Assembly: GCA_027082955.1 (NCBI GenBank)
Contig: JALWTA010000011.1
Span: 25,202 to 89,201, forward strand
Length of the DNA stretch: 64,000 nucleotides
From: Sulfurovum sp.
GTDB lineage: Bacteria; Campylobacterota; Campylobacteria; Campylobacterales; Sulfurovaceae
Direction of reading: 5' to 3'
Within the stretch, counting starts at the first letter, position 1, and the number at the start of each line of letters is the position of its first letter. Positions 2,390 through 50,717 of this stretch are shown here, in pieces. Both the position numbers and the translations under genes were made by a program. The notes below the pieces were generated by a model. It worked only from the letters and a program-made list of their open reading frames with translations. It did not search any database and was not told where the DNA came from.

Positions 2390-3253
2390 TTACATATCCA
2401 CCATTCTTTGCAGCCCTTCTTCCATATTTACTTTTGGATACCAGCCTAAATGATTTAATTTCGAGATATCTGCTTCCATATGCATATTTTCACCATTTCT
2501 ATATGCTATTGCCCCGAAATTCAATTTTGAAGAGATATTGCTTTGTTGTTTTATCGTTTCAAACAAAAACACAACTATCTGCCTCAACTCTCTTGCTACT
2601 CCATATCCTACCTCAAACTCTTCATACATTTCAAGAGACAAACAATTTTGCATAACAAGCATATAGGCATCTACAACATCATCAATATATACAAAGTCTC
2701 GTTTTTGGGTTCCTTCTGTCAAATCTATCACCGGACTATTCTCTCTCATCTGCTCTATCAACCATGGAATAAATTGATCTTTACGCTGTGTTGGTCCATA
2801 CATATATTCTATCTTCATATTGATCACACGAAGTTTTTGTGAAACAAAATACAGCCACTCTCTAGCATGTTTTTTAGAAAGGGCATAAGAACTTACTTCA
2901 CATGGCAACAGTGTATCAGTATTGACAAAACATTGTACGCCATAACGTTGTGCACACTCATACAGTTCAATCGTAAATAGAAGATTTGTGCTGATCAAAG
3001 GAAGAATGGATTCATTCTCATTGCCATAATCTGTTGCAGTATGCACAACAATATCTATCATATGTTCCGCAAAAATATCTTCCAGTGCTATAGTATCAAT
3101 ATCATATAAAACAATGTCCGATATGAAAGAAGCGATTTGCTCAGTATCTGAACTTGATCGTTTGAGCGCAATAACCTGAATATTTTCATGAACAAAACGC
3201 TTCAGAAGAGCGCTTCCCAAGAATCCCGTTGCTCCACTGAGAAGTACTGTCAT
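2390..3253 (-). CDS. NAD-dependent epimerase/dehydratase, probable CDP-paratose/abequose synthase
   Basis: MTVLLSGATGFLGSALLKRF start; extended SDR; ATG overlaps rfbG stop; cassette position suggests rfbS/rfbJ-type reductase. Confidence 0.75.
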   Translation of the reverse strand: MTVLLSGATGFLGSALLKRFVHENIQVIALKRSSSDTEQIASFISDIVLYDIDTIALEDIFAEHMIDIVVHTATDYGNENESILPLISTNLLFTIELYECAQRYGVQCFVNTDTLLPCEVSSYALSKKHAREWLYFVSQKLRVINMKIEYMYGPTQRKDQFIPWLIEQMRENSPVIDLTEGTQKRDFVYIDDVVDAYMLVMQNCLSLEMYEEFEVGYGVARELRQIVVFLFETIKQQSNISSKLNFGAIAYRNGENMHMEADISKLNHLGWYPKVNMEEGLQRMVDM

Positions 3254-4350
3254 CAGACATTCACCGCCCAAAAAATTTTTTTCATTTTTGCCGCTTCTAT
3301 ATATGCACATAAATCATGATATGTATTGACATATGCATTTTCATAAAATGCTTGATACCATTTTGTCACTTTTTCAATCGTGGTTTGTAAATCCCACACA
3401 TCCCTCCAGCGCAGTTGAGTGTGTGCTTTTGAGCAATCCAGTTTAAGCATCTTCGCTTCATGAGGATGTCCTTCGCCGTCTATCTCATATTCAATTTTGC
3501 TCCAATAAAAACGGGCAGATTCAACTACTTCTTGCACTCTGACGGCATCATCAGAAGGACCGAAATTCCACCCTTGTGCAAACCTTCTCTCTCCTTCAAG
3601 AAGTTTCCATCCAAGATGAAGATAGCCGCTTAATGGCTCAAGTACATGCTGCCATGGTCTTATCGCATCGGGGTTTCTCAAAGATACTTTTTTCTCACTG
3701 CTCGCCGCTATCATGATATCCGGTATAAGTCTATCCTTTCCCCAATCTCCCCCACCTATCACATTTCCCGCTCTGCAGCTTGCCAACAAAACATGATGAT
3801 CTTTATCATATTTCTCTATATTAAAATAAGATCTTCTGTAACTTGAGGTCACAAGTTCTGCACACCCTTTTGATGCACTATAGGGATCATACCCTCCCAT
3901 CGGATCTATTTCCCGATACCCCCAAACCCATTCTTTGTTCTCATATGCTTTATCACTTGTAATATTGACAATGGCCCTGACACTTTCACTTTGACGGCAT
4001 GCTTCAAACACTTTAAGTGTTCCTATCACATTAACCTCATATGTTTCTACCGGATTGATATATGAATAGCGAACAAGAGGCTGTGCCGCCAGATGAAATA
4101 CAATATCTGGCTTATAGCTTTCAAAAACACTATTTAATTTATGTTGATCACGTATATCTCCTTCTATCGATATGATATTCATATCGAGCAATTCAATGTG
4201 ACTTGGATTGGTAGGGATATTTAGAGAATAACCGATAACATTTGCCCCAAGCTTCTGAAGCCAATAGGACAACCACGAACCTTTAAACCCTGTATGCCCG
4301 GTAACAAGAACTGTTTTCCCATTATATATGCCTCCGAAGAGTGTTTTCAT
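3253..4350 (-). CDS. rfbG: CDP-glucose 4,6-dehydratase
   Basis: Start taken at MKTLFGGIYNGKTVLVTGHTGFKGSWLSYWL; RfbG-type motifs HLAAQPLVRYSY, NITSDKAYENKEW, RPWQHVLEPLSGYLHLGWKL. Confidence 0.92.
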   Translation of the reverse strand: MKTLFGGIYNGKTVLVTGHTGFKGSWLSYWLQKLGANVIGYSLNIPTNPSHIELLDMNIISIEGDIRDQHKLNSVFESYKPDIVFHLAAQPLVRYSYINPVETYEVNVIGTLKVFEACRQSESVRAIVNITSDKAYENKEWVWGYREIDPMGGYDPYSASKGCAELVTSSYRRSYFNIEKYDKDHHVLLASCRAGNVIGGGDWGKDRLIPDIMIAASSEKKVSLRNPDAIRPWQHVLEPLSGYLHLGWKLLEGERRFAQGWNFGPSDDAVRVQEVVESARFYWSKIEYEIDGEGHPHEAKMLKLDCSKAHTQLRWRDVWDLQTTIEKVTKWYQAFYENAYVNTYHDLCAYIEAAKMKKIFWAVNV

Positions 4351-45224: not shown

Positions 45225-45803
45225 CTACTTTATAATGACAGGAACGCCTTCCCTGACGGCATACCACAACTGCTTCATGGCACTGTTTGTCACAGCCACA
45301 CAGCCGTGTGTCCAATTGTGTGCCAGCGTATAGTCATCACCATGTCCGTCAGCATTCCATGTAGGCTGGGCATGGATCGTAATGTCGCCTCCCGGGTCAA
45401 CACCCCGTTTTTTTGCCGAAGCGATATCCTCAGGTCGGGGGTAGGAGATGCACAAAGACCTGTAATATTTGGGAGAACAGAGCTTTCGGTGTATCCAAAA
45501 GGTACCTTCCGGTGTTCTGCAATCACCTTTTTCCCGTTTTTGTCCTACTGGATTTTTTCCCAAAGAGACAGGGAAACTGCTCTGTATTTTACCATCTCTA
45601 TACAGGTACAGAGTACGTTCTTTTTTAACAACCACAATCTTGTCTATCTTTTCACTTTCATCAAAATCTTTTGCAGCCAGCAATTCTTTTTGACACTCTT
45701 TTAGTGAATAGTGATCCCCCTCAACTTCAGGTGAGGCGCATCCCATGATTGCTAGATACAAGCAAAACAGTACAAAAGTAGACAGACGTTGCATATTTAA
45801 CAT
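45225..45803 (-). CDS. L,D-transpeptidase/YafK-like lipoprotein
   Basis: Lipobox AIMGCASP; ITIHAQPTWNADGHGDDYTLAHNWTHGCVAVTNSAM; start taken at MLNMQRLSTF. Confidence 0.85.
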   Translation of the reverse strand: MLNMQRLSTFVLFCLYLAIMGCASPEVEGDHYSLKECQKELLAAKDFDESEKIDKIVVVKKERTLYLYRDGKIQSSFPVSLGKNPVGQKREKGDCRTPEGTFWIHRKLCSPKYYRSLCISYPRPEDIASAKKRGVDPGGDITIHAQPTWNADGHGDDYTLAHNWTHGCVAVTNSAMKQLWYAVREGVPVIIK

Positions 45804-45915
45804 GATGGATTGTATCAAAATTACGATTATGCTGTCATAATAGATAAGTATAGTTAGGGTAACGAAATAAAAGAGAGAAGGGAAACAAACAAAATGCCCC
45901 AAGAGGGGCACAGCA

Positions 45916-46437
45916 TTACGCGTTGGCAGCCGCTTTTGCAGCTTCGATCGCCTCTTCGTAGTTTGGCTCTTGCGTAATTTCAGGAACAACCTGTTTGTAC
46001 GTTACTTTGCCGTCTTTGCCGATCACAAAGATCACACGTGCAAGTACACCTGCAAGTGGTCCGTCTGCAAGCAGTACGCCGTATGCATTACCAAAGTCTT
46101 TGTTTCTAAAGTCAGAACATACTTTAATGTTTTCGATGCCTGCTGCACCACACCATCTTGCTGCTGCAAAAGGAAGGTCCATAGAGACTGTGATCACCTC
46201 TACACCCTCAAGATCAGCTGCTTCTTGGTTAAATCTTCTTGTCTCAGCGTCACATACACCAGTGTCAAGTGAAGGAACAGCGATAACAAGCTGCACTTTC
46301 CCTTCTCCGCCTACCTGCTCATCCTGGAGCATTGGGTTGGAGTTTACCACTGTTACTACCGGAGCTGTATCTCCAACGTTTACTTCATTACCTGCGAGGT
46401 TACATACGATGTCGTTTTTAAATGTTACTGTTGCCAT
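45916..46437 (-). CDS. tpx: Thiol peroxidase
   Basis: FNQEAADLEGVEVITVSMDLPFAAARWCGAAGIENIKVCSDFRNKDFGNAYGVLL; VPSLDTGVCDAETRRF. Confidence 0.95.
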   Translation of the reverse strand: MATVTFKNDIVCNLAGNEVNVGDTAPVVTVVNSNPMLQDEQVGGEGKVQLVIAVPSLDTGVCDAETRRFNQEAADLEGVEVITVSMDLPFAAARWCGAAGIENIKVCSDFRNKDFGNAYGVLLADGPLAGVLARVIFVIGKDGKVTYKQVVPEITQEPNYEEAIEAAKAAANA

Positions 46438-46566: not shown

Positions 46567-47736
46567 TTAGAGTCCTGGAATTCTTGGTATTCTTCCCAGC
46601 TTGCTATTGCGGCAGTACCAGCCCCAGCCCTTTTTCATCCAGTGTCCCACCACCGGCATAGGGATCATCTTCCCGCCTTTACTGTCACGATAGACAAAGG
46701 CTGCTCCGTTGCCTGTATCCATCACACACAAAATGTTTAGATGATCCATATAGCTCTCTTTGGAATCGATGTGCTGAATATCCATCCAGATATTGTGTGC
46801 CGTATTACGTGCCATCACTTCAGCGACATGCCCCTGTTTCGCACGCCACTTCGGTCCTATCAACGATGCAGAATCCCCAATGGCATAAATGCCGTCAAAA
46901 CCTTCGACCTCATTGTATTCATTGGTCACGACAAATCCTGCATCACTCAGAGGCAGTCCAGACGCTTTCAAGACACTATGCCCTGTTCCGGCAGCAATGA
47001 ACATTGTCAGATCCGATACGATCTTCTCTCCATCTTCAAAAAGTATCCCATCTTCAACAAATTCAGTGATTTTAGAGCCGATTTTTGTTTTCACATCTGT
47101 CATTTTGAACATTTTGTCCATCATTTCCAGTGCTTTCTCGCCCATCTTCTGACCCGGCTTTGCCATAGGAGCGAAGAAGATCAGTTCAAACCTGTCGCGC
47201 ACTCCCTTTTTCTTGAGGTAATTGTGCACATTGAAAAGCACTTCAAAGGCAGGACCGCCGCGCACGGCAGAGGTATCTTTGGGGTTTCCGCCAAACCCGA
47301 AAGCAAGTTTGCCGCTTCCCTTCTGCACCAAAGCATCCAGACGCTCATACAGTGCTGTTGCCTCTTCTGGTTTTCCACAAATAGAGAGTGTATGTTCCAT
47401 ACCTTTATGCATGATCTTATCCTGACCCATCGCCACAACGACATAATCATACCCCTCCAGCACACGACCGCTTGCAAGCGTGGTACGTTTTGTCTTGGGG
47501 TCAAAGGCAGTAACAGGATCGACAATCACTTTAAATCCATGCGCAAATGCCAGCTTGTCCAAAGGCACGCTGACATCCTCCATAGTCGCATCACCGGTAG
47601 GTATCCAGATCGAGGTTGGGTAAATATAGAAAAAGTCCCGATCACTTACAAGCGTCACATCGAGATCATGTTTTCTAAGGGAGATCGCCGCCTCTACACC
47701 TGCAAATCCGCCTCCAAGCACCAATACTCTCGCCAT
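46567..47736 (-). CDS. sqr: FAD-dependent oxidoreductase, sulfide:quinone oxidoreductase family
   Basis: MARVLVLGGGFAGVEAAISLRKHDLDVTLVSDRDFFYIYPTSIWIP; SQR/FCC-like fold; C-terminal MKKGWGWYCRNSKLGRIPRIPG. Confidence 0.8.
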   Translation of the reverse strand: MARVLVLGGGFAGVEAAISLRKHDLDVTLVSDRDFFYIYPTSIWIPTGDATMEDVSVPLDKLAFAHGFKVIVDPVTAFDPKTKRTTLASGRVLEGYDYVVVAMGQDKIMHKGMEHTLSICGKPEEATALYERLDALVQKGSGKLAFGFGGNPKDTSAVRGGPAFEVLFNVHNYLKKKGVRDRFELIFFAPMAKPGQKMGEKALEMMDKMFKMTDVKTKIGSKITEFVEDGILFEDGEKIVSDLTMFIAAGTGHSVLKASGLPLSDAGFVVTNEYNEVEGFDGIYAIGDSASLIGPKWRAKQGHVAEVMARNTAHNIWMDIQHIDSKESYMDHLNILCVMDTGNGAAFVYRDSKGGKMIPMPVVGHWMKKGWGWYCRNSKLGRIPRIPGL

Positions 47737-47746
47737 GATGACTCCT

Positions 47747-47942: not shown

Positions 47943-49403
47943 TTACTGCTTCTTCAGAAGGTCGGCACGAGGATAGACGAATACAGTATGTCGTATCACT
48001 TCTATCTTCTTCTTGTCATCAACCGCATATGCTTTGATGGTTACAGGGATAGGCACATCTTTACGTGTACTGTCTGCCAATTTTGCATCAGTTCTCAATA
48101 CAACGACTTTTTTACGTTTTTTTCCTGCCGCGATAGAAAAGCTCTCTTTGGGTCTTACGATCTTGAGCTTTTTACCGAGATCACCTTCCACTTCAAAATA
48201 ATAGGTGTGTCGTTTACTGTCTGTGTTGGCAAACAGGAATACATAATCATTTTCCACTCCGCCATCATCAAGTATTTTATACAGTCTGGTTGTTTTGTTA
48301 ATATTTAGCAGCATATGCTCTTTCTTGCTTCCCATCGTAAAGAGTGCGACCAGAACAATAGTCAGTACCGTAAAGTAGGCAATCACTTTCGGTCTGAATA
48401 TCTTGGTCTTTCTCTCATGCTTTTCTGTCTCAACCACACTTGACCACTGCACAAGGCTCGGCTTCCCAAGGGCACCCATGACCTGCGTACAGGCATCGAC
48501 ACACTCAAGACAGTTGATGCACTCAAGTTGCAACCCTTTACGAATATCGATGTGGGTTGGACAGACAGTTACACAGCTTTCACAGGTTGTACATTCCGCT
48601 TCAGGATTGACAGCTTTAAGCTCCTTTTGCTTCTTGAAGACTTTGTGTCTGTCGTTACCATGCCCTTCATAAATCTCTCCACCACGGATCGGGTCGTAGA
48701 TAGCCATCAGAGTATCATCATCATAAAGTACCGACTGTACACGGCTGTAAGGACAAATATAGACACAGAAATCCTCTTTAATAAAGACCACATCCAAAAT
48801 CAAAAAGAGTGCAACGCCCGCAACAAATCCAATCATGATCATATGATCCGCTGGATGCTGCAGATATTTAAAGAAATCTTCCGGCGGAACAAAGTACCAC
48901 ATGAAATCCGCTGCAGCAATCACAGCCAGTACAGACCAGAGCAAAATAGCAATAAGCTTTTTGACCTTGTTCTCCGGTTTGCTCATATCCGGCTCCTGCT
49001 GCTTGTTCTTGATACGCTTTCTCAATCCAAGCAGTTTGGTCTCAATAAGATCCCGATAGACCACACGGAAGATCGTCTGGGGACATGCCCAGCCACACCA
49101 TGCACGCCCGCCTACTGCCGTAACTGCAAAAATTCCCAAAAAGAGAAGCATCAACATAAACGGCATCAGATAGAGCTCCTGCATATCAAACGCCACGCCT
49201 GCAAGATGCAGTTTTTTATGGTCAAAACTGAGCAGGAACAGATGGTTGCCGTTAATCGTGATCCACGGCATTCCCAATGATATGATGGTTGCTGCCACAT
49301 ACATCCAGTAACGTTTAATACGGTAAGGCACCCATCCTTTCAAATACTCCTTCGCCATGTTTTTCTTTGGTTTTTTCATCTCTTGCTGTACTGCTGCTTC
49401 CAT
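47943..49403 (-). CDS. ccoG: Cytochrome c oxidase accessory protein CcoG (polyferredoxin)
   Basis: GGRAWCGWACPQTIFR; CTTCESCVTVCPTHIDIRKGLQLECINCLECVDAC. Confidence 0.93.
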   Translation of the reverse strand: MEAAVQQEMKKPKKNMAKEYLKGWVPYRIKRYWMYVAATIISLGMPWITINGNHLFLLSFDHKKLHLAGVAFDMQELYLMPFMLMLLFLGIFAVTAVGGRAWCGWACPQTIFRVVYRDLIETKLLGLRKRIKNKQQEPDMSKPENKVKKLIAILLWSVLAVIAAADFMWYFVPPEDFFKYLQHPADHMIMIGFVAGVALFLILDVVFIKEDFCVYICPYSRVQSVLYDDDTLMAIYDPIRGGEIYEGHGNDRHKVFKKQKELKAVNPEAECTTCESCVTVCPTHIDIRKGLQLECINCLECVDACTQVMGALGKPSLVQWSSVVETEKHERKTKIFRPKVIAYFTVLTIVLVALFTMGSKKEHMLLNINKTTRLYKILDDGGVENDYVFLFANTDSKRHTYYFEVEGDLGKKLKIVRPKESFSIAAGKKRKKVVVLRTDAKLADSTRKDVPIPVTIKAYAVDDKKKIEVIRHTVFVYPRADLLKKQ

Positions 49404-49404
49404 G

Positions 49405-50079
49405 TTACGATATCCTTTCTTTTTGATTGTACTCCTGTTGTTCAAAAGGGCAAATAAGTACGGTATTGTCCGCGCCACCGATCTGCTGTGGTGATGCAAT
49501 CTCCATCCATGCTCCCTTAATCAACTCTCTTATTCCGCGTGATTCAATATAATCCTTCAGCGAACTGCGACTTACATTTAACTCTCTTGCAATCGCACTG
49601 ACGTTCATCCCCTCTTTCAAAAGTTCGATAATACGTCCCTGGTGCACATCGAATTTGGAAGAGGAACGGCTCCCTTTCGGGCGACCGATCTGACCTGTTT
49701 TTGCCTTTTGGGCCTCCCTTAGGTCATTCAACAGAGGGAAAACATCTACCAGTGGTGATGTTTTCGTTACCGTTGTACCCGATCCGGCAATATAAAGTGT
49801 GATCCCGCGACTGAGCATACAGTTGATCACCTTGACCACCTCCTCTACAACATCGCTGAGGATCGCAAGGTGTTCTACGACTATTCCGTCCCCTTCCTTT
49901 AAAGAGTGTAAAAATTTTTCAAACTCTTTGCGCTCTTCTATCGGTCGGCTTTTTGTACTGTACTCGATCACCTCTTTCTCGATCTGAAGTCCCTGTGCCA
50001 ATGCAAAAGAGAGCATCGTGCGCTGTTGCTGCGACAAATTGCTGTGATTTGGCATCTGTCGTAAATATGCGTATGTCAT
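49405..50079 (-). CDS. Serine-recombinase-like protein lacking catalytic residues, probable transcriptional regulator
   Basis: Resolvase-like N-terminal fold, GRPKGSRSSSKFD linker, C-terminal HTH NVSAIARELNVSRSSLKDYI; RVS and DRLGRS catalytic motifs absent. Confidence 0.75.
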   Translation of the reverse strand: MTYAYLRQMPNHSNLSQQQRTMLSFALAQGLQIEKEVIEYSTKSRPIEERKEFEKFLHSLKEGDGIVVEHLAILSDVVEEVVKVINCMLSRGITLYIAGSGTTVTKTSPLVDVFPLLNDLREAQKAKTGQIGRPKGSRSSSKFDVHQGRIIELLKEGMNVSAIARELNVSRSSLKDYIESRGIRELIKGAWMEIASPQQIGGADNTVLICPFEQQEYNQKERIS

Positions 50080-50140
50080 AACTCTCCTTTATCATTTTCA
50101 TTATCTTACTAAATCAGATGTTAAAAATAAATAAATTTGG

Positions 50141-50200
50141 ATGTTTTTACGTCATATATTATCTTTTTTCGTCATAGTAGTTTTATTTTCGTCAACAATT
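50141..50200. repeat. Three direct repeats TTTTTWCGTCA at exact 20-bp period
   Basis: atgtttttacgtcatatatt / atcttttttcgtcatagtag / ttttattttcgtcaacaatt. Confidence 0.85.
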
Positions 50201-50237
50201 ATGATAAAATGCATCAAAAAAACACAAGGATACCTTC

Positions 50238-50717
50238 GTGAACCTTACCCATCTTGATGAACAGAACAAACCAAAAATGGTTGATGTCTCAGACAAAACA
50301 GACACAACCCGTATCGCCACTGCCAGCGGTATTATAGAGGTAAGCCAAGAAGCATACGATGCTGTCATGACCAATACGGCAAAAAAAGGTCCCGTTTTGC
50401 AAACAGCGGTCATTGCTGCCATTCAAGGTACCAAGCAAACCAGTACGCTGATACCTATGTGCCATCCGCTGATGCTTACCTCCGTCAAAACAGATATTGA
50501 AGAACTTCCCGAAATACCGGGCTTCAAACTGACTGTTACTGCCAAACTTACCGGTAAAACCGGTGTAGAGATGGAGGCACTTACCGGAGTGAGTATCGGT
50601 TTACTGACGATCTACGATATGCTCAAAGCGATTGACAAAGGTATGGTGATCAAAAATGTACAGCTTGAGCACAAAAGCGGTGGAAAGTCAGGTGATTTTA
50701 ACCGAGAAGACCAATAA
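50238..50717 (+). CDS. moaC: Cyclic pyranopterin monophosphate synthase
   Basis: [62 protein letters not shown]. Confidence 0.96.

Follow-up and report, generated by a model that had tools for sequence, protein, structure and literature searches.

Half-sites within res combine a short G/C-containing core with A/T positions, like the boxes described here. The Tn3 resolvase TnpR, acting at the divergent promoters within res, represses both its own gene and the divergent tnpA (PMC7157771), and subunits of the serine recombinase Sin bind the head-to-tail repeats of its site II in a catalytically inactive state (PMC2428073). At the level of function, a further system of reference is SqrR, a persulfide-sensing local repressor with two conserved cysteines that controls sqr (PMC9995734).

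Here we describe a locus in a 64,000-nucleotide stretch of Sulfurovum sp. DNA (hereafter, the window) where an array of short repeats separates moaC from the gene of a catalytically dead serine recombinase followed by ccoG. Our search of the open-access literature turned up neither this regulator family nor any account of ccoG control in the order. The array is likely to be the autoregulatory operator of the adjacent dead recombinase, controlling regulator and ccoG and often also sqr and tpx. Operator architecture, co-occurrence with the regulator, catalytic loss, invariant cysteines and gene order are read from the sequence; binding, repression rather than activation, and a thiol switch with its signal are what we infer.

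TnpR of Tn3 and gamma-delta shares the fold and helix-turn-helix (HTH) of the regulator, is among its nearest relatives in both sequence and structure searches, and autoregulates, as the regulator is predicted to, at a site flanked by divergent genes (PMC7157771). As far as the sequence tells, the half-sites of the regulator overlap the promoter of its own gene, as in TnpR. In contrast with TnpR, the regulator is not carried by a transposon with tnpA and res but has ccoG, sqr, tpx and moaC as neighbours; it has lost the catalytic residues, has two invariant cysteines and a C-terminal tail, and is linked to ccoG; and its half-sites are one to three direct ones plus one inverted, instead of the three dimer sites of the TnpR res. 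Among natural proteins in the PDB, Sin (2r0q) matches the regulator best in sequence. It is catalytically active, however, at its site I in plasmid resolution, whereas the regulator is catalytically dead, and Sin site II holds two half-sites in a 29-bp duplex, whereas the copies here are 20 bp apart and number up to three. Since Tn3 resolvase is an autorepressor and Sin is inactive on a head-to-tail repeat, a dead relative would most simply be an autorepressor as well. The likeness to SqrR lies in the two conserved cysteines and is a functional analogy in which sensing is predicted; SqrR, BigR and CstR have ArsR or CsoR folds instead of a serine recombinase fold, and the invariant neighbour of the regulator is ccoG, not sqr.

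A catalytically dead serine recombinase linked to ccoG

The genes concerned lie in the window as follows.

49405 to 50079, minus strand: regulator gene (224 aa), a catalytically dead serine recombinase with Resolvase and HTH_7 domains and invariant Cys87 and Cys210
47943 to 49427, minus strand: ccoG, cbb3 oxidase accessory protein
46567 to 47739, minus strand: sqr, sulfide:quinone-reductase-like flavoprotein
45916 to 46437, minus strand: tpx, thiol peroxidase, closing the conserved series in Sulfurovaceae
50238 to 50717, plus strand: moaC, the divergent neighbour

Both the N-terminal Resolvase domain and the C-terminal HTH_7 of the window regulator score above the curated Pfam cut-offs, and Sin and gamma-delta resolvase are the nearest solved structures in a PDB profile search and in a fold search with the predicted model (mean pLDDT 78, with low confidence for the tail bearing Cys210). 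Among 110 orthologs, the arm GRPKGSxSxSKFD and the HTH are conserved, whereas the catalytic serine position varies and both active-site arginines of the LDRLGR motif have been lost. Residues Ser10, Arg68 and Arg71, in gamma-delta numbering, are not conserved across these orthologs and are missing from the window protein, while true recombinases of the same order (L076 to L078) retain the catalytic serine and arginines in the same alignment. The "dead-recombinase" regulator of the original prediction is therefore borne out. Cys87 is present in 110/110 orthologs and Cys210, in the C-terminal tail, in 109/110, with no further conserved cysteine and no conserved histidine among the 110. This lack of other conserved cysteines and histidines would favor a two-cysteine switch over a four-ligand metal site within one chain. 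The protein is best read as a serine recombinase domesticated into a local autorepressor; it is probably thiol-switched, with conservation suggesting that the switch consists of the two cysteines.

A regulator homolog occurs in 70 of 100 relatives, the weakest matches being true recombinases, and profile matches among 298 genomes of the class fall into two groups with a clean gap between them, orthologs (E < 1e-49) and recombinases (E > 1e-24). Named records with the regulator are Sulfurovum, Nitratifractor and Hydrogenimonas. Its neighbour in nearly all orthologs, and in 46/46 of an out-of-sample set, is ccoG, which encodes the cupric reductase for cbb3 oxidase maturation, the loss of which halves oxidase activity in Campylobacter jejuni (PMC8267372). 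The gene order in Sulfurovaceae is regulator-ccoG-sqr-tpx; some deeper families have sqr, and none of them showed tpx within the stretches examined. The presence of sqr and tpx in the same series would make thiol oxidation or persulfidation the most natural signal, as in SqrR.

Several variations surround this gene series. At L055 (genome G040) and L195, sqr directly follows the regulator and ccoG is missing; the same contig of G040 additionally carries another copy of the regulator, which is shorter. In two distant families (L067 and L074), a gene named from sequence as a TehA/SLAC1-like anion channel accompanies the regulator locus, placed downstream of ccoG in the one family and in divergent orientation in the other. 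The product of the gene that follows tpx in the window (45225 to 45860, minus strand) weakly matches the YafK/DpaA-type peptidoglycan family.

A probable operator conserved with the regulator

CGTCA occurs three times between the regulator and moaC (50150 to 50154, 50170 to 50174 and 50190 to 50194) with a period of exactly 20 bp, where the original prediction had placed it. Allowing at most one mismatch, TTCGTCA-N13-TTCGTCA has two matches in the window, both at the array, against 0.02 expected. The pair TGACGNNAA-N11-TGACGNNAA matches exactly only at the array in its own genome; with up to two mismatches there are 15 other matches, compared with 27 in the reversed control, and nothing beyond the array stands out. 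The repeats had thus been correctly recognized, but their informative orientation is that of the minus strand, where they read as 11-bp boxes of TGACG followed by six A/T positions, oriented toward the regulator gene and resembling resolvase half-sites, and there is a fourth, inverted copy, which falls inside the promoter of the regulator itself. The elements of the intergenic region are the following.

50184 to 50194, minus strand: direct box 1, TGACGAAAATA, outermost, beside the moaC promoter
50164 to 50174, minus strand: direct box 2, TGACGAAAAAA, 20 bp from box 1
50144 to 50154, minus strand: direct box 3, TGACGTAAAAA, the closest to the regulator promoter and the most conserved
50116 to 50126, plus strand: fourth half-site, inverted and degenerate, AGATGTTAAAA, aligned by position to the conserved element
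50126 to 50131, minus strand: putative -35 of the regulator-ccoG promoter, TTTATT, by positional alignment
50103 to 50108, minus strand: putative -10 of the same promoter, TAAGAT, 17 nt from the -35
50202 to 50210, plus strand: extended -10 of moaC, TGATAAAAT, conserved in relatives

The outer ends of the inverted half-site and box 3 lie 39 bp apart in the window. In relatives the inverted half-site reads TGATGTTAAAA or TGACGATAAAA and the -35 is mostly TTGACT, versus TTTATT in the window, where both elements are degenerate and a consensus promoter scan calls no regulator-ccoG promoter. An innermost direct box with an inverted partner, their outer ends 38–39 bp apart, is found in 134 of 147 distinct regulator upstreams from several families of the order, the out-of-sample set included, and most of the 13 without the strict pattern retain a near form. 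Aligned upstreams place the inverted partner in the spacer of the regulator-ccoG promoter, between -35 and -10; in orthologs this promoter has the form TTGACTTTTATCRTCA-N7-TATAAT, the inverted box being the TTTTATCRTCA within it; most of these promoters are near-consensus at both hexamers. The conservation of repeat sequence and spacing, on which the original prediction had been staked, is clear: TGACG occurs in 103/106 distinct upstreams (8.7 in shuffles) and TGACG pairs at 19–22 bp in 63/106 (0.03 in shuffles), counts that are inflated by relatedness and not independent, the loci being related to one another. The six positions after TGACG are nearly free of G/C in the 106 upstreams, and TGACG is also present in 42/46 out-of-sample orthologs. 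Tandem direct boxes range from one to three; on a tree of the 106 regulators their number is clustered, with one in nearly all deep families and one to three in Sulfurovaceae and relatives. Three loci (L062, L272 and L296) have the same change in both half-sites (TGGCG and CGCCA), which is only mild evidence of covariation because single-sided changes are commoner. As the regulator is a dead recombinase and the operator travels with it, the predicted autoregulation appears very likely.

In some members of one family (f16; L268, L278, L281, L284 and others), an extra TGACG overlaps the -10 (TATAATGACGATGAAA), about 40 bp before the regulator start and 51–52 bp from the first box.

The regulator might instead be an activator: bound at the direct boxes, upstream of the -35, it would bring RNA polymerase to the regulator-ccoG promoter. 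The direct boxes are indeed just upstream of the -35, in the position of class I/II activators, and the window -35 is poor, as at activated promoters. We consider this unlikely: the inverted box occupies the spacer between the -35 and the -10, most of the promoters are near-consensus at both elements, and in some members a further box overlies the -10, a placement that fits repression.

Under autorepression, the regulator HTH would read TGACG in the major groove and the GRPKGSxSxSKFD arm would lie in the adjoining A/T-rich minor groove, as in resolvase half-sites. One pair of subunits is predicted to bridge the innermost direct box and the inverted box, shutting the regulator-ccoG promoter, while in Sulfurovaceae and Hydrogenimonadaceae one or two extra direct boxes, in 20-bp steps (about two helical turns), would add subunits on the same face. 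The functions under control would be copper delivery to the cbb3 oxidase, sulfide oxidation and peroxide removal, with release probably occurring when the two invariant cysteines are oxidised or persulfidated.

The divergent moaC gene

According to the original prediction, the array was a joint operator of regulator and moaC that coupled molybdopterin synthesis to the ccoG-sqr operon, and its third copy abutted a -10-like TATGAT facing moaC. This hexamer is present (50200 to 50205), but a better candidate for the moaC -10 is the extended form TGATAAAAT at 50202 to 50210, which in relatives reads ATTTTAGCATA on the opposite strand. A joint operator gains some credit from the 21 loci of the three-box clade, where the outermost box is 9–10 nt from this conserved extended -10, the same relation as that of the inverted box to the regulator -10, and from the divergent, adjacent position of moaC in Sulfurovaceae and in the family of G063, G082 and G098. 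This position of moaC is seen only in Sulfurovaceae and a Hydrogenimonas-like family, and in most loci outside the three-box clade the distance from outer box to moaC -10 is at least 25 nt. The boxes nearest moaC are those that vary or are lost among clades, insertions part box 1 from moaC in L016, L018 and L023 and leave the array intact, and none of 15 genomes with moaC located elsewhere has paired boxes at that gene, whereas in the same families the operator is retained at the regulator-ccoG promoter. A joint operator is thus improbable. Coupling to moaC is confined at best to the three-box clade, where a side effect is possible, and does not account for the conservation of the operator.

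Specificity and origin of the proposed operator

Across 100 genomes, the double-box pattern has 33 matches, compared with 3 for the reversed control, and all but a few are at the regulator; none of the 20 testable ccoG genes of regulator-less genomes has the operator. Together with its absence at distant moaC genes, this assigns the operator to the regulator-ccoG promoter. TGACG resembles half-sites of unrelated factors, and another protein, for instance a global regulator, might bind it next to a recombinase-like gene that is a mere neighbour; since operator and regulator are present together and absent together, and the pattern occurs at about one place per genome, unlike the sites of a global regulator, we regard this as very improbable. 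Still less credit is due to phased A-tracts forming a purely curved upstream element without any protein, for which the A/T-rich stretches at two-turn spacing would speak, because it is TGACG that is conserved while the A/T positions vary, and the inverted copy shares this core. A res or att site of a still active recombinase, for all the likeness of the boxes to resolvase half-sites and the direct half-site repeats of Sin site II (PMC2428073), is already contradicted by the loss of the catalytic serine and arginines across orthologs and by a chromosomal position and gene order conserved over the order, and we give it virtually no weight.

Domestication of the recombinase into a dedicated thiol-switch transcription factor may tentatively be placed early in the order, with catalysis lost, two cysteines gained and res-type half-sites turned into a promoter switch that ties the copper supply of the cbb3 oxidase through ccoG, as well as sulfide oxidation through sqr and tpx, to redox or sulfane-sulfur state. 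If autorepression by the regulator is correct, the locus would clearly exemplify the conversion of a recombinase into a host transcription factor, one that has an operator predictable from sequence, nearly a single target per genome and a cysteine pair, and would give an entry point to the way in which sulfur-oxidising Campylobacterota adjust oxygen respiration to sulfide. The evolution of the operator is visible as well, from one direct box in deep families to up to three in Sulfurovum.

Looser searches were of little use: a single-copy motif scan was uninformative (10 matches against 9 in the control), the spacer motif TTGACTTNNNNCRTCA by itself matched often by chance, and away from the regulator locus the 39-bp pattern matched mostly inside genes in a chance-like manner. 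Among its matches, a palindromic one in G063 coincides with a start codon that has a promoter-like stretch upstream of it, and those in G089 and G093 have other contexts. A perfect copy of the operator-promoter (TGACGAAAAAAATATAAAATATCTTGACTTTTATCGTCA) is found in G076 (L250, 1645 to 1683) before two genes (1726 to 2217 and 2409 to 3938), a small protein gene and, as named from sequence, a cydA-like bd oxidase subunit gene; it looks like a real second target. The regulator relative of G076 has neither Cys87 nor the tail, and so neither cysteine, and no ccoG lies beside its gene; this single case is in line with a respiratory role and with joint loss of the cysteines. In G028 (L303), a genome of the same genus where the regulator was undetected, ccoG is directly preceded, at a distance of about 100 bp, by an apparent inverted box and -10 (TTTATATCGTCAAAACTGATACAAT), as though the operon had lost its regulator gene.
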